A stretch of DNA of 16,863 nt from Anaerolineales bacterium. GTDB taxonomy: Bacteria; Chloroflexota; Anaerolineae; Anaerolineales; Villigracilaceae. Under the pieces are notes generated by a model. The model was not told where the DNA came from. It did no database searches and worked only from the letters and a program-made list of their open reading frames with translations. Shown in pieces: positions 6,239 to 12,657 of this stretch. Where the stretch lies: contig JAICRQ010000025.1 of assembly GCA_025966435.1 (NCBI GenBank), forward strand, positions 1 through 16,863, in the 5' to 3' direction. Position numbers and translations under genes: made by a program. Numbering within the stretch: the stretch's first letter is position 1; every line of letters begins with the position of its first letter.

Positions 6239-6994
6239 ATGAAACGTGACCTGTATTTTCGCAAGCCACTCATGAACGCCGCGGGGTCCTTAGGCTTCGC
6301 GCCCGATTCTCGTGTGGGGATTTCACTTGACTCGTTCGGCGCGTTCGTAACAAACCCATTCTCCCTTCGCCCGCGCAAGCCTGCGGCCCAACCAGAGATA
6401 ATCGAATACCCGGGAGGCTTTCTTCTTCACAGCGGCTTACCCAACCCAGGATTCAGCGCGGGCGTCAAACGGTACGCCTCCCGCTGGGATAAATCGGACC
6501 TGCCGGTCATCGTCCATCTCATGGCAGATCGTCCGGACGAAACCCGGCAGATGGTGCGGATGCTGGAAACGCATGAGAATGTGATGGCAGCAGAACTCGG
6601 TTTTGCACCTCTGCTTGCCGACGATATCTTGCTGCTCACGCTTGAAATGTGTTTGGGGGAGCTGCCTCTGATCTTTTCCCTGCCGGTGGAGCAGGTGCTG
6701 AGCCTGGGTCCGCGGTTGATTCAGGAAGGTGCGCGGGCGATTAGTATTTCGGCTCCGCGTGGGGCGCTGATGAAGGATCACTTGATCACAGGCAGGCTGT
6801 ATGGCCCATCTCTATTTCCTCGCGCACTCGAAACGGTTTACTCCGCGGCAAAACTTGGCCTGCCTATTATCGGTGCAGGCGGGGTGTGGGCAAAGGAAAA
6901 CGCCGACGCAATACTCTCGGCTGGCGCGCTGGCGGTGCAGGCGGACGCGGTCCTATGGGGCGTTAACTGGCTGAGTCAATCCTCGATGGTGTAA
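6239..6994 (+). CDS. dihydroorotate dehydrogenase-like protein lacking the catalytic motif
   Basis: A 251-residue protein with the beta/alpha-barrel landmarks of class 1 dihydroorotate dehydrogenases: KPLMNAAGSLGF at 9-20, GFLLHSGLPNPGF at 60-72, TGRLYGPSLFPRALETV at 184-200 and the FMN-phosphate motif PIIGAGGV at 209-216. It is about 50 residues shorter than the family. The catalytic loop (normally N-x-S-C-P-N) is replaced by ELGFAPLL at 119-126, and the FMN-contacting Lys strand reads LPLIFSLP at 142-149 with no Lys. It is therefore unlikely to oxidise dihydroorotate and may bind FMN for another purpose. A stop codon 9 nt upstream makes ATG 6239 the first possible start. No Shine-Dalgarno is present; TATAAC at 6228-6233 would permit a leaderless mRNA. 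It overlaps the convergent lipoprotein gene by 19 bp. Confidence 0.75.
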   Translation: MKRDLYFRKPLMNAAGSLGFAPDSRVGISLDSFGAFVTNPFSLRPRKPAAQPEIIEYPGGFLLHSGLPNPGFSAGVKRYASRWDKSDLPVIVHLMADRPDETRQMVRMLETHENVMAAELGFAPLLADDILLLTLEMCLGELPLIFSLPVEQVLSLGPRLIQEGARAISISAPRGALMKDHLITGRLYGPSLFPRALETVYSAAKLGLPIIGAGGVWAKENADAILSAGALAVQADAVLWGVNWLSQSSMV

Positions 6995-7455
6995 TCGAGC
7001 GTTTCGAGAAACCGTTCGCGCTCCTCGGGTGACATCCGTTGCACGGCGAGGCGGATGGTATAACCGCCGACCAGCTTTCCGTCTTCCACGATCATCCAAT
7101 CTACAATATCTTCTTCATTAATCGTGACCTTTTCTCCGGCTTCTAGCCTTAGCGATGGAATGTCATCGCCCATATTGCCGTGGAAAACACCGTTCGTATA
7201 TGTCACCTCATCCACCCAGATATCCTGCGGGGACTCGCCGGGTGGCGTAAAACTGACTTTCACGGCAACAAAGGTCTGGTTCGGGTGAGGTGTTGTGATC
7301 TTCGTAATAAATGTATCTAATGAGCCGCGTGCCTCTGCAATAGCAGAGTCGGGTTCGGTGTCCTCCGATGACGTTGCGGACGTGGAGGGAGTGGCAAGTC
7401 GCGGAGTGCATGAAAACGTTAGAAGAGAAACAAATAAGACAAGTTTGTAAAACAT
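6976..7455 (-). CDS. DUF2314-family putative lipoprotein (copy 2)
   Basis: A 159-residue exported protein. A short hydrophobic N-terminus (FYKLVLFVSLLTFSC) ends in a Cys at residue 16. The lipobox L-T-F-S-C is not canonical, so lipid attachment is likely but not certain. A Ser/Thr/Glu-rich linker runs to about residue 42. The rest matches the DUF2314 pattern: FVAVKVSF, then DIWVDEVTYTNGVFHGNM, a 'G-E-K-V-T-I...D-I-V-D-W-M' segment and GKLVGGYTIRL. The ending MSPEERERFLETL is shared with the paralogue at 8388-8924. The function of DUF2314 (YegJ-like) is unknown. The ATG directly abuts the TAA of the Ddn-like gene, so it ends the operon. Confidence 0.8.
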   Translation of the reverse strand: MFYKLVLFVSLLTFSCTPRLATPSTSATSSEDTEPDSAIAEARGSLDTFITKITTPHPNQTFVAVKVSFTPPGESPQDIWVDEVTYTNGVFHGNMGDDIPSLRLEAGEKVTINEEDIVDWMIVEDGKLVGGYTIRLAVQRMSPEERERFLETLDYTIED

Positions 7456-8387: not shown

Positions 8388-8924
8388 TCATTCAGTCTTA
8401 TCGAACCGAATGCCGGTAACCTCAATATATCTCTTTTGCTGTTCGGGGGTCATACGTTTGTATTCCAGCCGGAGAGTGTAGCCGCCAACGAGCGTTCCAT
8501 CCTCTTCCAGAAGCATCCAATCGATAATGTCCTCCGGTCTAACGTCTACAAGACGGTCCGGATGAATGCCCTGCTCCACCGTCACACCTTCGATCATTCT
8601 CACTGTATACAGGTTGTCCAAAATATAAAGTGGCTCCGTCCACATATCTTCGATGTCGCCTTCTTCTCCAAAACGGATTTTCAGGCTGGTGATGGAATAT
8701 GCTTTTTTAGGAGCCAGGAATTCCTGACGCCAGATGTGGAGTGTTTCCTGCGCCTGACGAATCGCGTCCGCCAGTTCTTCATCAGCCAGCACAGGGATTG
8801 GCGTATGGAAAGTTATGGGATCAGGTGTGGAGATCGAAGTAGCAGTAGGTTCAGCAGGGCTGCAAGAAGCCAGGATTATAAACACGAGGAGAATAAAGGA
8901 TTTCCACTGGAGAGACTTGTGCAT
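8388..8924 (-). CDS. DUF2314-family lipoprotein (copy 1)
   Basis: A 178-residue exported lipoprotein. The signal peptide SFILLVFIILASC ends in a canonical lipobox (L-A-S-C, Cys21). A Pro/Thr-rich linker to about residue 45 precedes the DUF2314 domain: KAYSITSLKIRF, then DIEDMWTEPLYILDNLYTV, the 'R-P-E-D-I-I-D-W-M' motif and GTLVGGYTLRLEYKRMTPEQQKRY near the end. It is a paralogue of the protein at 6976-7455; dtd and the Ddn-like gene lie between the two. The start is supported by GGAG seven bases upstream of the ATG. A role in the cell envelope is inferred from the signal only. It follows the SelW-like gene by 58 nt. Confidence 0.85.
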   Translation of the reverse strand: MHKSLQWKSFILLVFIILASCSPAEPTATSISTPDPITFHTPIPVLADEELADAIRQAQETLHIWRQEFLAPKKAYSITSLKIRFGEEGDIEDMWTEPLYILDNLYTVRMIEGVTVEQGIHPDRLVDVRPEDIIDWMLLEEDGTLVGGYTLRLEYKRMTPEQQKRYIEVTGIRFDKTE

Positions 8925-8982
8925 TTAAAATCTCCATTCTGGACGGCCCAATTGGTCGGCTGCTTCTATGAAAGGGTGCTGC

Positions 8983-9225
8983 CTATTCCCCAACCATCTC
9001 CCTTACCAACCCGAGGATTTCTCCAGGTGCGGCATGGCGATGCGTTGACAGTTTCGAATACAACAACTGCCCGTTGACAGTCACTTCAAACGTCCCGCCA
9101 TCCGACGGGATCAGTTTGACCTCTTCGATCAAATGCTCATAATGCTTAAGCAATTCATCCATCAGGCTCACGGCCCGACCGGTGTAGTGTCAGACCGCAC
9201 AATAGACGATCTCTATTTTCAACAT
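8983..9225 (-). CDS. SelW-like (Rdx family) selenoprotein with in-frame UGA
   Basis: Reading the UGA at 9192-9190 as selenocysteine gives an 80-residue protein: M-L-K-I-E-I-V-Y-C-A-V-U-H-Y, then TGRAVSLMDELLKHYEHL and on to VREMVGE and a TAG. Cys9 and Sec12 form the CxxU redox motif in the first beta-alpha unit of the thioredoxin-like Rdx fold (SelW/SelT/SelH). The later SDGGTFEVTVNGQLLYSKL and RHAAPGEI are also family features. GGAGG (9234-9230) sits 4 nt before ATG 9225; an adjacent ATG at 9228 is too close to it. A SECIS-like hairpin follows the UGA. Rdx proteins are small thiol/selenol oxidoreductases of uncertain substrate. The gene begins 28 nt after tupC. Alternative reading: translation from the GTG at 9171 would give only 62 residues without the active site and has no ribosome site. 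Selenocysteine machinery lies outside the window. Confidence 0.88.
9159..9182 (-). promoter_or_regulatory. bacterial SECIS-like hairpin for UGA recoding
   Basis: Starting 10 nt after the UGA, GTCGGGC (9179-9173) pairs with GCCTGAT (9167-9161), including two G-U pairs, around the 5-nt loop CGTGA (9172-9168). CC (9182-9181) can pair with GG (9160-9159) past a bulged G. The loop begins 18 nt after the UGA and has G as its second base. This fits the known bacterial SECIS rule of a loop 16-37 nt downstream with a G in its first two positions, where SelB binds. Confidence 0.72.
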
Positions 9226-9253
9226 CATCCCTCCGTCAATTTCGAAAATTATA

Positions 9254-9970
9254 TCATTGTGGCAACTCCTGCAAAAACGCGGCGACCGTCTCGTCCGCCG
9301 GGTTAGACTTAATCTGCCCTGCTGTCCCCACTTGGCGCAGGACTCCTCCCACGAGCACGGCAATTCGGTGACTCAACGTTGCCGCCTCATTTAAGTTATG
9401 CGTGACAAAGACCGCGGTGCGCTGGTGAGCTCTTAGCAAAGTGGATAGATCGTCGATCAGCTTCGCACGCGTTGGCGGATCGAGCGCTGAGAACGGCTCG
9501 TCGAGCAGCAGGAGCTCTGGCTCGAGCACGAGCGCCCGCGCCAGGCTGACTCGCTGCGCCTCTCCGCCAGATAACTGGCCCGCCCGCCGTTTCGCCAGGG
9601 CTTCCACTCCCAGTTGTTTCATCCATTTGCCTGCGCGCTGGCTGATCTCTTGCTTTGGCACGCCGCGGAACTTGAGCCCGAGCGCGACATTCTGTTCCAC
9701 CGTCATATCCATTAACAACGGAGCCTGGAATACAAACGATATTTTCCGGCGGTATTCCAGTTCCTTCCAATCCTTGAGAGGCTTTCCATCATAGAGTATC
9801 TCACCCTGTGAAGGATAGAGCAACCGCGCCAGCGCAAGCAACAGTGTGCTCTTCCCCGCGCCGTTCGGTCCTACAACCGCGAGTGTTTCGCCGCGTTGAA
9901 TAGCCAGAGAATCGACCTGAAGCACCTTCAGCCCATTCCGTTCGATCAGCAGATCGCGAATTTGAATCAT
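9254..9970 (-). CDS. tupC: tungstate ABC transporter, ATP-binding protein
   Basis: A 238-residue ABC ATPase that powers anion import from the cytoplasmic side of the membrane. Walker A GPNGAGKST is at residues 34-42, the Q-loop Gln at 82, the signature LSGGE at 133-137, Walker B LLLLDE at 153-158 and the switch His at 191 (VTHN). It ends soon after the ATPase domain, without the C-terminal molybdate-binding (TOBE) domain of ModC. That fits the TupC/WtpC type. Assignment to tungstate rests on the two TupA-type binding proteins and the permease encoded directly upstream. One base separates its ATG from the permease stop codon. The selenoprotein gene follows 28 nt after its TGA. Confidence 0.88.
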   Translation of the reverse strand: MIQIRDLLIERNGLKVLQVDSLAIQRGETLAVVGPNGAGKSTLLLALARLLYPSQGEILYDGKPLKDWKELEYRRKISFVFQAPLLMDMTVEQNVALGLKFRGVPKQEISQRAGKWMKQLGVEALAKRRAGQLSGGEAQRVSLARALVLEPELLLLDEPFSALDPPTRAKLIDDLSTLLRAHQRTAVFVTHNLNEAATLSHRIAVLVGGVLRQVGTAGQIKSNPADETVAAFLQELPQ

Positions 9971-10694: not shown

Positions 10695-11537
10695 TTACTC
10701 CAAGCCCAGGTCCGCATCCGTCTTATCTGCGTCAGGAAAGAAAAAAGGCTCACCAAACTCGTCCACACCAAATTCGGCGATAATGGTTTGACCTTCAGGA
10801 GACGTGATGAAATCGGCAAATGCCCGAGCACCGTCGAGGTTCACCGCCGGGTGCTTCTCAGGGTTGACCGTAATCACATGATACACATTCAACAAAAACG
10901 GATCGCCCTCGACCAGGCTTTCCAAATCCACATTGGTTTTGTAAGCAAGGAAAGTACCGCGGTCGGTCAGCGCATACCCGCTTTTTTCGGAAGCGATCGA
11001 GAGCGTCGCACCCTGTCCCTGACCGGTTTCGAGATACCAGCTTTCGGCGGGCGGGGTAAGCCCTGCGTTCGCCCACAGCGCCAGCTCCTTGACGTGCGTA
11101 CCTGAGTCGTCACCGCGCGAGACAAAGGTCGCGCCCGCCGCGTGGATCTTCCTAAACGCCTCCACCGGACTCCCGCCGCGAATCCCGGCTGGGTCGGAGG
11201 GAGGTCCAACAATCACAAAGTCATTATGCATCACAAGGCGGCGATCGATGCCAAACCCGCTGGCAACGAATTCCTTCTCCGCCTCGGGCGAGTGAAGCAG
11301 GATTACATCGGCATTTCCCTGCTCGCCAATCTTCAGCGCCTGCCCGCTGCCCACCGCGACGAGTTGAACGTTATAGCCTGTTTTTTCCGTGAATGCCGGG
11401 AGCAGCACATCCAGCAAACCCGAGTCCTGTGTGGAGGTGGTAGAAATCAGCAAAAGATCATGGTTTTGAGAAGGCGCCAGATTGCATGACGAGAGAAGAA
11501 ACGCAACGATCAAGAACCAGGAAGCGAGTGTTTTCAT
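10695..11537 (-). CDS. tupA: tungstate-binding lipoprotein (copy next to tupBC)
   Basis: A 280-residue extracytoplasmic solute-binding protein that would capture tungstate (or molybdate) and deliver it to TupBC. A lipoprotein signal (WFLIVAFLLSSC, Cys18) tethers it to the membrane. The oxyanion-binding signature TTSTQDSGLLD is at 33-43. FVSRGDDSGTH, WYLETGQGQGATL, SEKSGYALTDRGTFLA and LLNVYHVITVNPEKHP follow in the order typical of TupA. The C-terminus FPDADKTDADLGLE is nearly the same as in the other copy. The start is supported by GGAG just upstream, immediately after the T tract of a terminator, so this gene begins where the transcript of the first copy should largely stop. Confidence 0.92.
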   Translation of the reverse strand: MKTLASWFLIVAFLLSSCNLAPSQNHDLLLISTTSTQDSGLLDVLLPAFTEKTGYNVQLVAVGSGQALKIGEQGNADVILLHSPEAEKEFVASGFGIDRRLVMHNDFVIVGPPSDPAGIRGGSPVEAFRKIHAAGATFVSRGDDSGTHVKELALWANAGLTPPAESWYLETGQGQGATLSIASEKSGYALTDRGTFLAYKTNVDLESLVEGDPFLLNVYHVITVNPEKHPAVNLDGARAFADFITSPEGQTIIAEFGVDEFGEPFFFPDADKTDADLGLE

Positions 11538-11545
11538 TCATCTCC

Positions 11546-11582
11546 AAAAGAAAAAGGCGACTCCGCTCTTTTGCGAGCCGCC
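11546..11582 (-). terminator. intrinsic terminator between the two tupA copies
   Basis: On the - strand GGCGGCTC (11582-11575) pairs with GAGTCGCC (11563-11556) over 8 bp with one G-T, around an 11-nt loop. Then TTTTTCTTTT (11555-11546) runs directly into the ribosome site of the next tupA. It would end most transcripts of the first copy or attenuate the downstream genes. Confidence 0.8.
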
Positions 11583-11600
11583 CCTCTCAATCGGGATGGA

Positions 11601-12461
11601 TTATAAGCCCAAGTCTGCATCTGTTTTATCAGCGTCAGGGTAGAACAATGGCTGACCATATTTGTCCATACCGAATTGACCGATGATTTCCTGTGTAGCG
11701 GGTGCAGTCATGAATTCCAGAAAAGTCTTTGCACCGTCATAATTGACCTTGGGCCTCTTTTCCGCATTAACGGTGATCACATGATACACATTGAGCAATG
11801 AGGTGTCGCCTTCCACCAGGATTTCCAGGTCCAGATGATCCCTGTTTGCGAGGAACGTCGCTCTGTCCGTCAGGGTGTATCCATTCTTTTCTGAAGCAAT
11901 GATCAGGGTGGCACCCATGCCCTGTCCGGTTTCGGTATACCAGGCAGGCTGTTCAGCAGCCGGGTCGAGCTCCGCTTTTGTCCAAATGCCAAGTTCCTTG
12001 GTGCTTGTCCCCGACTCATCCCCTCGGGCAATGAAGCTTGTTTGCGCAGCGGCGATCGCCTTGAAGGCATCTGTCGCGCTGAGACCTCTGATCTGCGCCG
12101 GATCATCGGTGGGACCGACGATAACGAAATCATTATGCATGACGAGGGCACGATCTTTGCCCCATCCATCTGCCATGAATTGGTTTTCGGCTGACGGCGA
12201 ATGAACCAGTAAAACATCCGCGTTGCCTTCCTGCCCCATCTTCATGGCTTGACCGGAGCCCACCGCAACCGTCTGGACCGTGTAGCCTGACTCCGCTTCG
12301 AACATGGGGATCAGCACATCGAGTAAGCCCGAGTCCTGCGTGGATGTTGTTGTGGCAAGAATCAGGTTTGGCTGAAAGACCGGAGGCACAACAATAGCAG
12401 GGGTTGCAAAACCACATGCGGTCAACAAGAATGAAAAAGCAATCAAAGACAACTTGTACAT
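11601..12461 (-). CDS. tupA: tungstate-binding lipoprotein, paralogue
   Basis: A 286-residue TupA-type binding protein. The lipoprotein signal LSLIAFSFLLTAC (Cys16) fixes the start at ATG 12461; the open frame continues upstream to 12590, but that part lies across the riboswitch and has no signal-like sequence. Oxyanion signature TTTSTQDSGLLD is at 37-48. FIARGDESGTS, WYTETGQGMGATL, SEKNGYTLTDRATFLA and LLNVYHVITVNAEKRP match the neighbouring copy, and both end PDADKTDADLGL, so the pair looks like a tandem duplication that has since diverged. No clear Shine-Dalgarno is visible. A terminator follows, so this copy may be expressed apart from tupABC. Tungstate versus molybdate preference cannot be read from the sequence. 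Confidence 0.9.
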   Translation of the reverse strand: MYKLSLIAFSFLLTACGFATPAIVVPPVFQPNLILATTTSTQDSGLLDVLIPMFEAESGYTVQTVAVGSGQAMKMGQEGNADVLLVHSPSAENQFMADGWGKDRALVMHNDFVIVGPTDDPAQIRGLSATDAFKAIAAAQTSFIARGDESGTSTKELGIWTKAELDPAAEQPAWYTETGQGMGATLIIASEKNGYTLTDRATFLANRDHLDLEILVEGDTSLLNVYHVITVNAEKRPKVNYDGAKTFLEFMTAPATQEIIGQFGMDKYGQPLFYPDADKTDADLGL

Positions 12462-12479
12462 TTCATAAGTGTACCAAAG

Positions 12480-12508
12480 TTGACATGACCTTCTGCCTAT
12501 GTTATAAC
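12480..12508 (+). promoter_or_regulatory. sigma-70-type promoter for the SAM riboswitch transcript
   Basis: A consensus TTGACA (12480-12485), a 17-bp spacer and TATAAC (12503-12508) predict transcription from about 12515, just ahead of the aptamer. The -10 lies in a palindrome, GTTATAAC (12501-12508). Confidence 0.8.
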
Positions 12509-12509
12509 T

Positions 12510-12524
12510 CGTAAACAATTTACG
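12510..12524. repeat. inverted repeat at the riboswitch transcription start (candidate operator)
   Basis: CGTAAA-CAA-TTTACG is a perfect 6-3-6 inverted repeat spanning the predicted + strand start site and lying upstream of the divergent tupA. It could be an operator for either direction. It matches no ModE-type or other consensus I know. Confidence 0.35.
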
Positions 12525-12530
12525 GATTTG

Positions 12531-12657
12531 CTCATCCAGAGAGGCTGAGGGACCGACCCTGTGACGCCTCGGCAACCATTCCGTGATCATTCATCCATGA
12601 TCACTGAAGCTGGTGCCAACTTCGGCGGACACACTACATGTGTGTCCGGGAGATGAG
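12531..12657 (+). ncRNA. SAM-I (S-box) riboswitch aptamer
   Basis: All parts of the S-box fold can be drawn. P1 is CTCATC (12531-12536) with GATGAG (12652-12657). P2 is GAGGC (12541-12545) with GCCTC (12566-12570). The conserved GGCAACC is at 12571-12577. P3 is GTGATCAT (12583-12590) with ATGATCAC (12597-12604), and the conserved GGTGCCAAC is at 12612-12620. P4 is GGACACAC (12627-12634) with GTGTGTCC (12640-12647). The 5' part (CCAGAGAGGCTGAGGGACC) matches the S-box consensus closely. Binding of S-adenosylmethionine stabilises P1, freeing the terminator that follows and switching expression off. Such switches normally control methionine or SAM synthesis and transport genes; here metH is the only candidate downstream. 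Confidence 0.95.

Follow-up and report, generated by a model that had tools for sequence, protein, structure and literature searches.

The stretch of DNA analysed here (the window) comprises 16,863 nucleotides (nt) of contig JAICRQ010000025.1 from an Anaerolineales bacterium (Chloroflexota; Villigracilaceae; assembly GCA_025966435.1). Its minus strand carries at 8983..9225 a gene with an in-frame UGA that very probably (about 0.96 in our estimate) codes for a bacterial SelW-like selenoprotein of the Rdx family, in which UGA is read as selenocysteine (Sec). The elements of the gene are listed below.

8983..9225, minus strand: selW-like gene, 80 codons plus TAG, with UGA predicted to be read as Sec
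9230..9234, minus strand: Shine-Dalgarno-like GGAGG in the sequence, 4 nt 5' of ATG 9225
9225-9223, minus strand: start ATG, from the sequence
9199..9201, minus strand: TGT codon of Cys9, with which the CxxU motif begins
9190..9192, minus strand: UGA codon 12, putative Sec codon, TGA at the aligned codon in relatives
9169..9171, minus strand: GTG codon inside the hairpin loop, used by gene callers as start of a truncated open reading frame (ORF) of 62 residues
9162..9178, minus strand: bacterial SECIS-like (selenocysteine insertion sequence) hairpin, with 5' arm 9178-9173, loop CGUGA 9172-9168 and 3' arm 9167-9162
8985-8983, minus strand: stop TAG

Reading frame and annotation

Cys9, Ala, Val and TGA follow each other in this order and the frame is then open to TAG, giving the product MLKIEIVYCAVUHYTGRAVSLMDELLKHYEHLIEEVKLIPSDGGTFEVTVNGQLLYSKLSTHRHAAPGEILGLVREMVGE. 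A second in-frame ATG (9228-9226) lies directly 5' of ATG 9225, where the match of relatives begins. The preliminary description of this DNA, made from its letters, had placed GGAGG, ATG 9225, UGA at codon 12 and the same-frame continuation to TAG correctly to the base. Its assignment of UGA to the second redox residue of CxxU agrees with the Cys9-Ala-Val-UGA12 order, and its statement that the part after UGA lacks an active site and a ribosome site also holds: this part has no Cys in the window sequence, and inspection of the sequence found no GGAGG-like site 5' of GTG 9171. It is from this GTG that the mechanical ORF list starts an ORF of 62 residues, downstream of UGA and in the same frame.

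Public databases reproduce this truncation. The search found 861 homologues, 120 of which are listed (nine read as sequence, the others by length). Among those listed, 88 have 62 residues, 26 have 59 and three have 66, so that the lengths of 117 of the 120 omit UGA and everything before it. The miscall by standard annotation that the preliminary description anticipated is thus the common state of the listed entries, and routine gene calling overlooks the selenoprotein together with its active site. The other three (P0005, P0008, P0011) are 80 residues long and have W as residue 12, presumably because their genes were called with translation table 4. Many listed homologues are named "selenoprotein W-related protein" by JGI.

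Family, fold and conservation

The 80-residue recoded protein matches Pfam Rdx (PF10262) over profile positions 1-74 of 74 with 71 bits (cut-off 22.6, E 9.9e-20) and TIGR02174 (CXXU_selWTH) with 59.5 bits (cut-off 34.2), as expected from the family named in the preliminary description. The best NCBIfam match by E-value is NF041051 (SelTWH_Campy) with 78.5 bits, which misses its equivalog cut-off of 88 bits. The predicted fold (mean predicted local distance difference test score, pLDDT, 95.5) matches solved SelW-family proteins. In the model, a strand (residues 2-9) is followed by the CxxU motif and by a helix (15-32), placing the protein, as modelled, among thioredoxin-like SelW folds.

Scanning named genome contigs yielded 42 loci (the window group) in 40 assemblies, which are labelled as Chloroflexi, Chloroflexota, Anaerolineae or one of the subgroups of Anaerolineae. 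Codon 12 is TGA in 42/42, including L090, a contig-end piece of 20 codons. A Shine-Dalgarno-like tetramer (any of five) is found at most 20 nt from ATG in 41 of the 42 genes, a count that has no chance rate behind it. Across the class, Rdx is present in 179 of 396 genomes. The matches number 187 as the sum of per-genome counts, 150 of them listed and 37 others. Among the 150 listed, 141 have one TGA and nine no stop, so that the UGA form is by far the main one among these matches. Thirty of the listed matches were read as sequence: 27 have TGA at the CxxU place and three (L019, L020, L044) have CxxC. Homologues with Sec or Cys at position 12, for which the preliminary description proposed a search, therefore both exist. 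Cys9 is invariant in an alignment of 29 rows.

The ratio of nonsynonymous to synonymous differences (pN/pS) was calculated for 41 window-group genes, L086 being dropped from the 42 for an internal duplication. Codons 2-11 have a value of 0.029, whereas the values for codons 13-23 and 24-76 are 0.480 and 0.305, respectively. The codons before UGA are under strong purifying selection. The Rdx score of 71 bits, TGA in all 42 named loci and the low pN/pS put the frame far beyond chance. Synonymous divergence falls to 0.34 in codons 13-23, compared with 0.73 and 0.67 elsewhere, a dip expected of a nested RNA element. In the same region the Ala codon at +6 from UGA is GCC and the Val codon at +7 is GTG in 42/42 genes; from codon 27 on, the same genes use them in 32/112 and 105/246 cases, respectively.

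Note that the selW copy at L086:3001-3327 contains an internal stretch of about 31 codons duplicated in tandem and codes for 111 residues, with UGA kept at codon 12.

SECIS-like hairpin

Published rules for the bacterial SECIS (bSECIS), as given in the excerpted text of PMC13188914, ask for a loop of 3-9 nt, a stem of 4-16 bp, a distance of 16-37 nt from UGA, a minimum free energy of at most -7.5 and a G within the first two loop positions. The window hairpin agrees with them: the 5-nt loop CGUGA, with G at position 2 followed by U, begins 17 nt after UGA on a 7-bp stem, and the energy of a 51-nt piece is -12.7 kcal/mol. At 8900-9400, Rfam gave two sub-threshold matches and no SECIS family.

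Conservation of the hairpin was analysed over the 63 nt from UGA on in two alignments, A1 (42 window-group sequences) and A3 (27 other class loci, 26 distinct). RNAalifold predicts for A1 a single helix, columns 15-20 with 26-31, closing the loop CGUGA, whose five inner pairs form in 42/42 sequences. The Arg codon CGA occurs only alongside the Leu codon TTG (5/5, p 2.5e-5; L059 and L063 of the five are close kin), which is a synonymous compensatory change. The A1 covariation score, the number of paired cells and the number of cells changed on both sides lie above 500/500 shuffles and every slid version of the alignment. Compared with synonymous-codon sampling, A1 folding energy has a mean z-score of -1.82 (34/42 below -1); control regions have -0.01 (8/42 below -1) and 0.14 (6/42).

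The A3 helix is shifted in register (columns 20-25 paired with 29-34) and its loop centre lies 4 nt further on. Over the same protein positions, the two groups of the class thus have the helix in two registers. A3 exchanges C-G for G-C (20 and 6 sequences) and U-A for C-G (14 and 7), and its covariation score and cells beat 500/500 shuffles. Both hairpins satisfy the bSECIS loop, G position and spacing (17 and 22 nt). Their two registers offer a natural system to study SelB tolerance.

Selenocysteine machinery

The genome of the window is a draft metagenome-assembled genome (MAG) of 3.84 Mb in 635 contigs, 80% complete, in which the window is contig 56. The preliminary description had made the presence of selA, selB, selD and tRNA-Sec a check on Sec use, and all four are found above cut-offs: SelB with 344 bits, SelA with 545, SelD with 350 and tRNA-Sec with 68.7 bits, the latter also called by ARAGORN as SeC with anticodon tca. 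SelD of this genome (L018:1501-2433) reads SACAGUASK with an in-frame UGA, at what we take to be its catalytic position, and appears therefore to be itself a selenoprotein. All sampled genomes of the window's family (25/25) have SelD with one UGA.

Among the 396 class genomes, 170/179 with Rdx and 169/217 others contain selA at E up to 0.001 (Fisher p 6e-7). With a strong selA set, its 314 members chosen by eye from E-values (315 exceed the cut-off), the counts are 163/179 and 151/217. Genomes with Rdx thus almost always have selA, whereas selA can be present without Rdx. The tRNA-Sec search was loose, 14/14 control genomes giving a match and five of them exceeding the cut-off; matches of at least 56 bits were considered convincing. 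Sixteen Rdx genomes have a weak selA match or none; tRNA-Sec is over the cut-off in 12 of them and convincing in 10. One genome, G326, has no convincing tRNA-Sec and both its Rdx matches are stop-free. In G146, whose Rdx row is outside the matches listed, the tRNA-Sec match has only 50.5 bits over 87 nt.

A Sec formate dehydrogenase was searched in the window's own genome, where only four sub-cut-off pieces of one stop-free open frame of 746 residues were found. UGA-containing FdhA is present in G351, G223 and G130 of the same genus; G280 has no such row among the matches listed.

Genomic neighbourhood

The genes around selW in the window have the order tupA-tupA-tupB-tupC-selW-DUF2314-dtd. 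Those described here are the following.

9254..9970, minus strand: ATP-binding cassette (ABC) ATPase, TupC-like by its position, with its end 28 nt 5' of selW; ABC_tran 132 bits
9972..10658, minus strand: TupB-like permease; NF038017 260 bits (cut-off 100), NF041773 (TupB) 156 bits, below the cut-off of 320
10695..11537, minus strand: TupA-like binding protein 1; NF041772 249.6 bits, below the cut-off of 400
11601..12590, minus strand: TupA-like binding protein 2; NF041772 248.4 bits, below the cut-off of 400
8388-8924: DUF2314 protein with a lipoprotein-like amino terminus; DUF2314 54.1 bits
6976-7455: short protein with a lipoprotein-like amino terminus

The ATPase at 9254..9970 has no NCBIfam row shown at cut-off, its tungstate WtpC match reaching 200 of 440. 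It is on the same strand as selW and the two may belong to one operon. The two adjoining TupA-like genes (10695-12590) stand alongside a single permease gene and a single ATPase gene. A general function of selW in connection with tungstate uptake was rejected, since just 8 of the 42 named loci have tupB-tupC 5' of selW and on its strand (some of the 42 include less than 1 kb upstream). The proteins at 6976-7455 and 8388-8924 both match the same relatives' genes near dtd.

In relatives, the gene behind selW on the same strand is trpS-like in 41/41 named loci scored (L049-L089), the copies being 76-93% identical to the L069 query (L069 itself aside). We take it to be trpS from motifs read in its sequence. 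The selW-trpS gap has a median of 46 nt and is at most 12 nt (3-12) in 17/41, a few starts being extrapolated. The dtd gene is found in 38/42 named loci, the other four being short or cut by contig ends, and selW-trpS-dtd occurs in 4/4 same-genus stretches, two of which are probably from the same genomes as L059 and L063. The window's group therefore displays a trio coding a selenoprotein, an apparent tryptophanyl-tRNA synthetase (TrpRS) and a D-aminoacyl-tRNA deacylase. No trpS or dtd match was found in 30 other class loci (L019-L048), within flanks of about 1.5 kb or less.

The window is alone in its group in having no trpS behind selW. Local alignment of the gap 8925-8982 to trpS of four relatives scored 18-23, no higher than shuffles reached (maximum 23); a search elsewhere in the genome gave no match, which in an 80%-complete draft and with no positive control shows nothing. 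The absence at 8924-8983 may reflect real loss, relocation or an assembly fault.

Proposed function and alternative readings

We propose that the ribosome would begin at ATG 9225 and that the hairpin right after UGA, within the coding sequence, would recruit SelB with Sec-tRNA-Sec. UGA 9192-9190 would then be decoded as Sec and translation would go on to TAG 8983, resulting in a protein of 80 residues with a thioredoxin-like fold, in which the redox motif C9-A-V-U12 comes after strand 1 and before the first helix. Such a protein may have a thiol/selenol-disulfide redox role, its partner probably being a small thiol or a thioredoxin-like protein.

Several observations weigh against this proposal. 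By itself, the window segment is not more stably folded than shuffled versions of it (z-score -0.60, 51/200), and the outer pair of the A1 hairpin, formed in 36/42 sequences, fails in 6/42. The number of A1 pairs changed on both sides (2) is reached by 230/500 shuffles and that of further pair types (5) by 316/500; the corresponding A3 values are reached by 297/500 and 409/500, and none of these covariation shuffles corrects for relatedness. A3 folding energy is not below controls (mean z-score -0.56, compared with -0.04 and -0.58). Furthermore, G132, G205, G289 and G369 carry a UGA-containing Rdx without full selA or convincing tRNA-Sec. MAG incompleteness is perhaps the cause, though G289 is rated 99% complete. 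The support is also computational throughout: frame, family, predicted fold, UGA conservation, Sec machinery genes and a hairpin with compensatory changes are computed, and Sec insertion in this organism would follow from them.

The strongest alternative, although improbable, accepts a selenoprotein but gives it a mainly regulatory role, Se-dependent read-through of selW as a leader tuning the gene that follows. The trpS-like gene behind selW in all 41 loci scored, with its short gaps, speaks for it. The protein itself is nevertheless conserved, with redox motif and fold, and trpS matches are found neither in the window nor in the 30 class loci L019-L048, so that this cannot be the general function. 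Within the Anaerolineales lineage around the window, it is equally a long shot that selW acts as a selenium-sensing leader gene for trpS. If it did, a shortage of Sec-tRNA would halt ribosomes at codon 12; about 200 nt ahead of trpS would then go untranslated, and TrpRS output would drop through polarity or lost translational coupling. With ample selenium, ribosomes would read selW to its end and go on to trpS, which in 17/41 loci starts 3-12 nt after the selW stop. Selenium supply would in this way be tied to the charging of tryptophan-tRNA.

Even less probable are two separate pieces, a stub of 11 codons ending at UGA and a protein of 62 residues from GTG 9171 (or 59 from the next ATG). The 62-residue ORF of the mechanical list, the truncated lengths of 117/120 listed homologues and the retention of GTG in 42/42 window-group genes agree with this organization. 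However, the codon is GTC or GCC in 26/26 distinct genes of the other class group, so a GTG start is not conserved. It also lacks a preceding GGAGG-like site, its product would be without strand 1 and the CxxU motif, and pN/pS of 0.029 in codons 2-11 is at odds with a mere stub.

A pseudogene or sequencing error, in which TGA replaces a Cys or Trp codon by mutation or misreading, would fit a single in-frame stop near the 5' end, typical of a decayed gene, and a draft MAG, but is refuted by TGA conservation (42/42 named loci in 40 assemblies, 141/150 class matches listed), with purifying selection on both sides of TGA. Reassignment of UGA to Trp (genetic code 4), as W at position 12 of P0005, P0008 and P0011 would suggest, is likewise refuted, since TGA terminates 6/14 window ORFs taken as genes, including 3/6 with a profile match (TupC-like, Dtd, DUF2314), and 7/42 selW genes use TGA both at codon 12 and as end (placed by length), in a genome that has the Sec pathway.

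Comparison with known systems

Statements on the papers cited in this section refer to excerpts of their text. SelW-like proteins are listed as a bacterial selenoprotein family (PMC1088965, PMC1794560, PMC2398784, PMC13188914). In both the Sargasso Sea set (48 genes, CxxU; PMC1088965) and the GOS set (427 with Sec, 56 with Cys; PMC2398784), this family outnumbered all others. Publications have described SelW-like selenoproteins of bacteria since 2005, and the window gene thus belongs to a known kind.

The preliminary description considered Sec use sparsely documented in this group of Chloroflexota. This stands with a qualification, as some documentation exists: Anaerolineales single-cell genomes have been reported to contain Sec formate dehydrogenases (PMC4959059), and a 2006 count gave three selenoproteins in Chloroflexi (PMC1794560). 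The literature search gave no title on SelW in this class (titles, most papers unopened) and no paper joining selenoprotein W, tryptophanyl-tRNA synthetase and operon. Chloroflexi are unmentioned in a term search of PMC12013277, PMC13188914, PMC5029168 and PMC9312934, and the excerpts of PMC7117926 added nothing on SelW. For Anaerolinea thermophila, a Sec elongation factor but no Sec dehydrogenase was noted (PMC4959059); the SelW family may help to explain such Anaerolineae with Sec machinery.

The window model resembles the fold of the solved bacterial SelW-family proteins 2fa8 (Atu0228), 2p0g, 2obk, 3dex, 2oka and 2ojl over 75-80 residues (1.1-1.5 Å), at identities of 25-35%. Identity to mouse SelW (2npb) is 22%, and in eukaryotes, as for mouse SelW, the SECIS is located in the 3' untranslated region.

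Campylobacter jejuni SelW (CJnc60), whose full-length translation is backed by ribosome profiling and proteomics (PMC11955535), resembles the window protein in its length of about 80 residues and in a UGA read by tRNA-Sec. It differs in belonging to another phylum, and the window protein is below the NF041051 equivalog cut-off. With the SELENOW-like bacterial family the window gene has in common CxxU, the Rdx domain and a SECIS-like hairpin in the coding sequence after UGA; the window group differs by the motif CAVUHY and by its Anaerolineae host, which the excerpted descriptions do not name for the family. The SelW-like bacterial selenoprotein family is already known; what the present analysis adds is its widespread under-annotation, two SECIS registers and a selW-trpS pair that is conserved in relatives but absent in the window.
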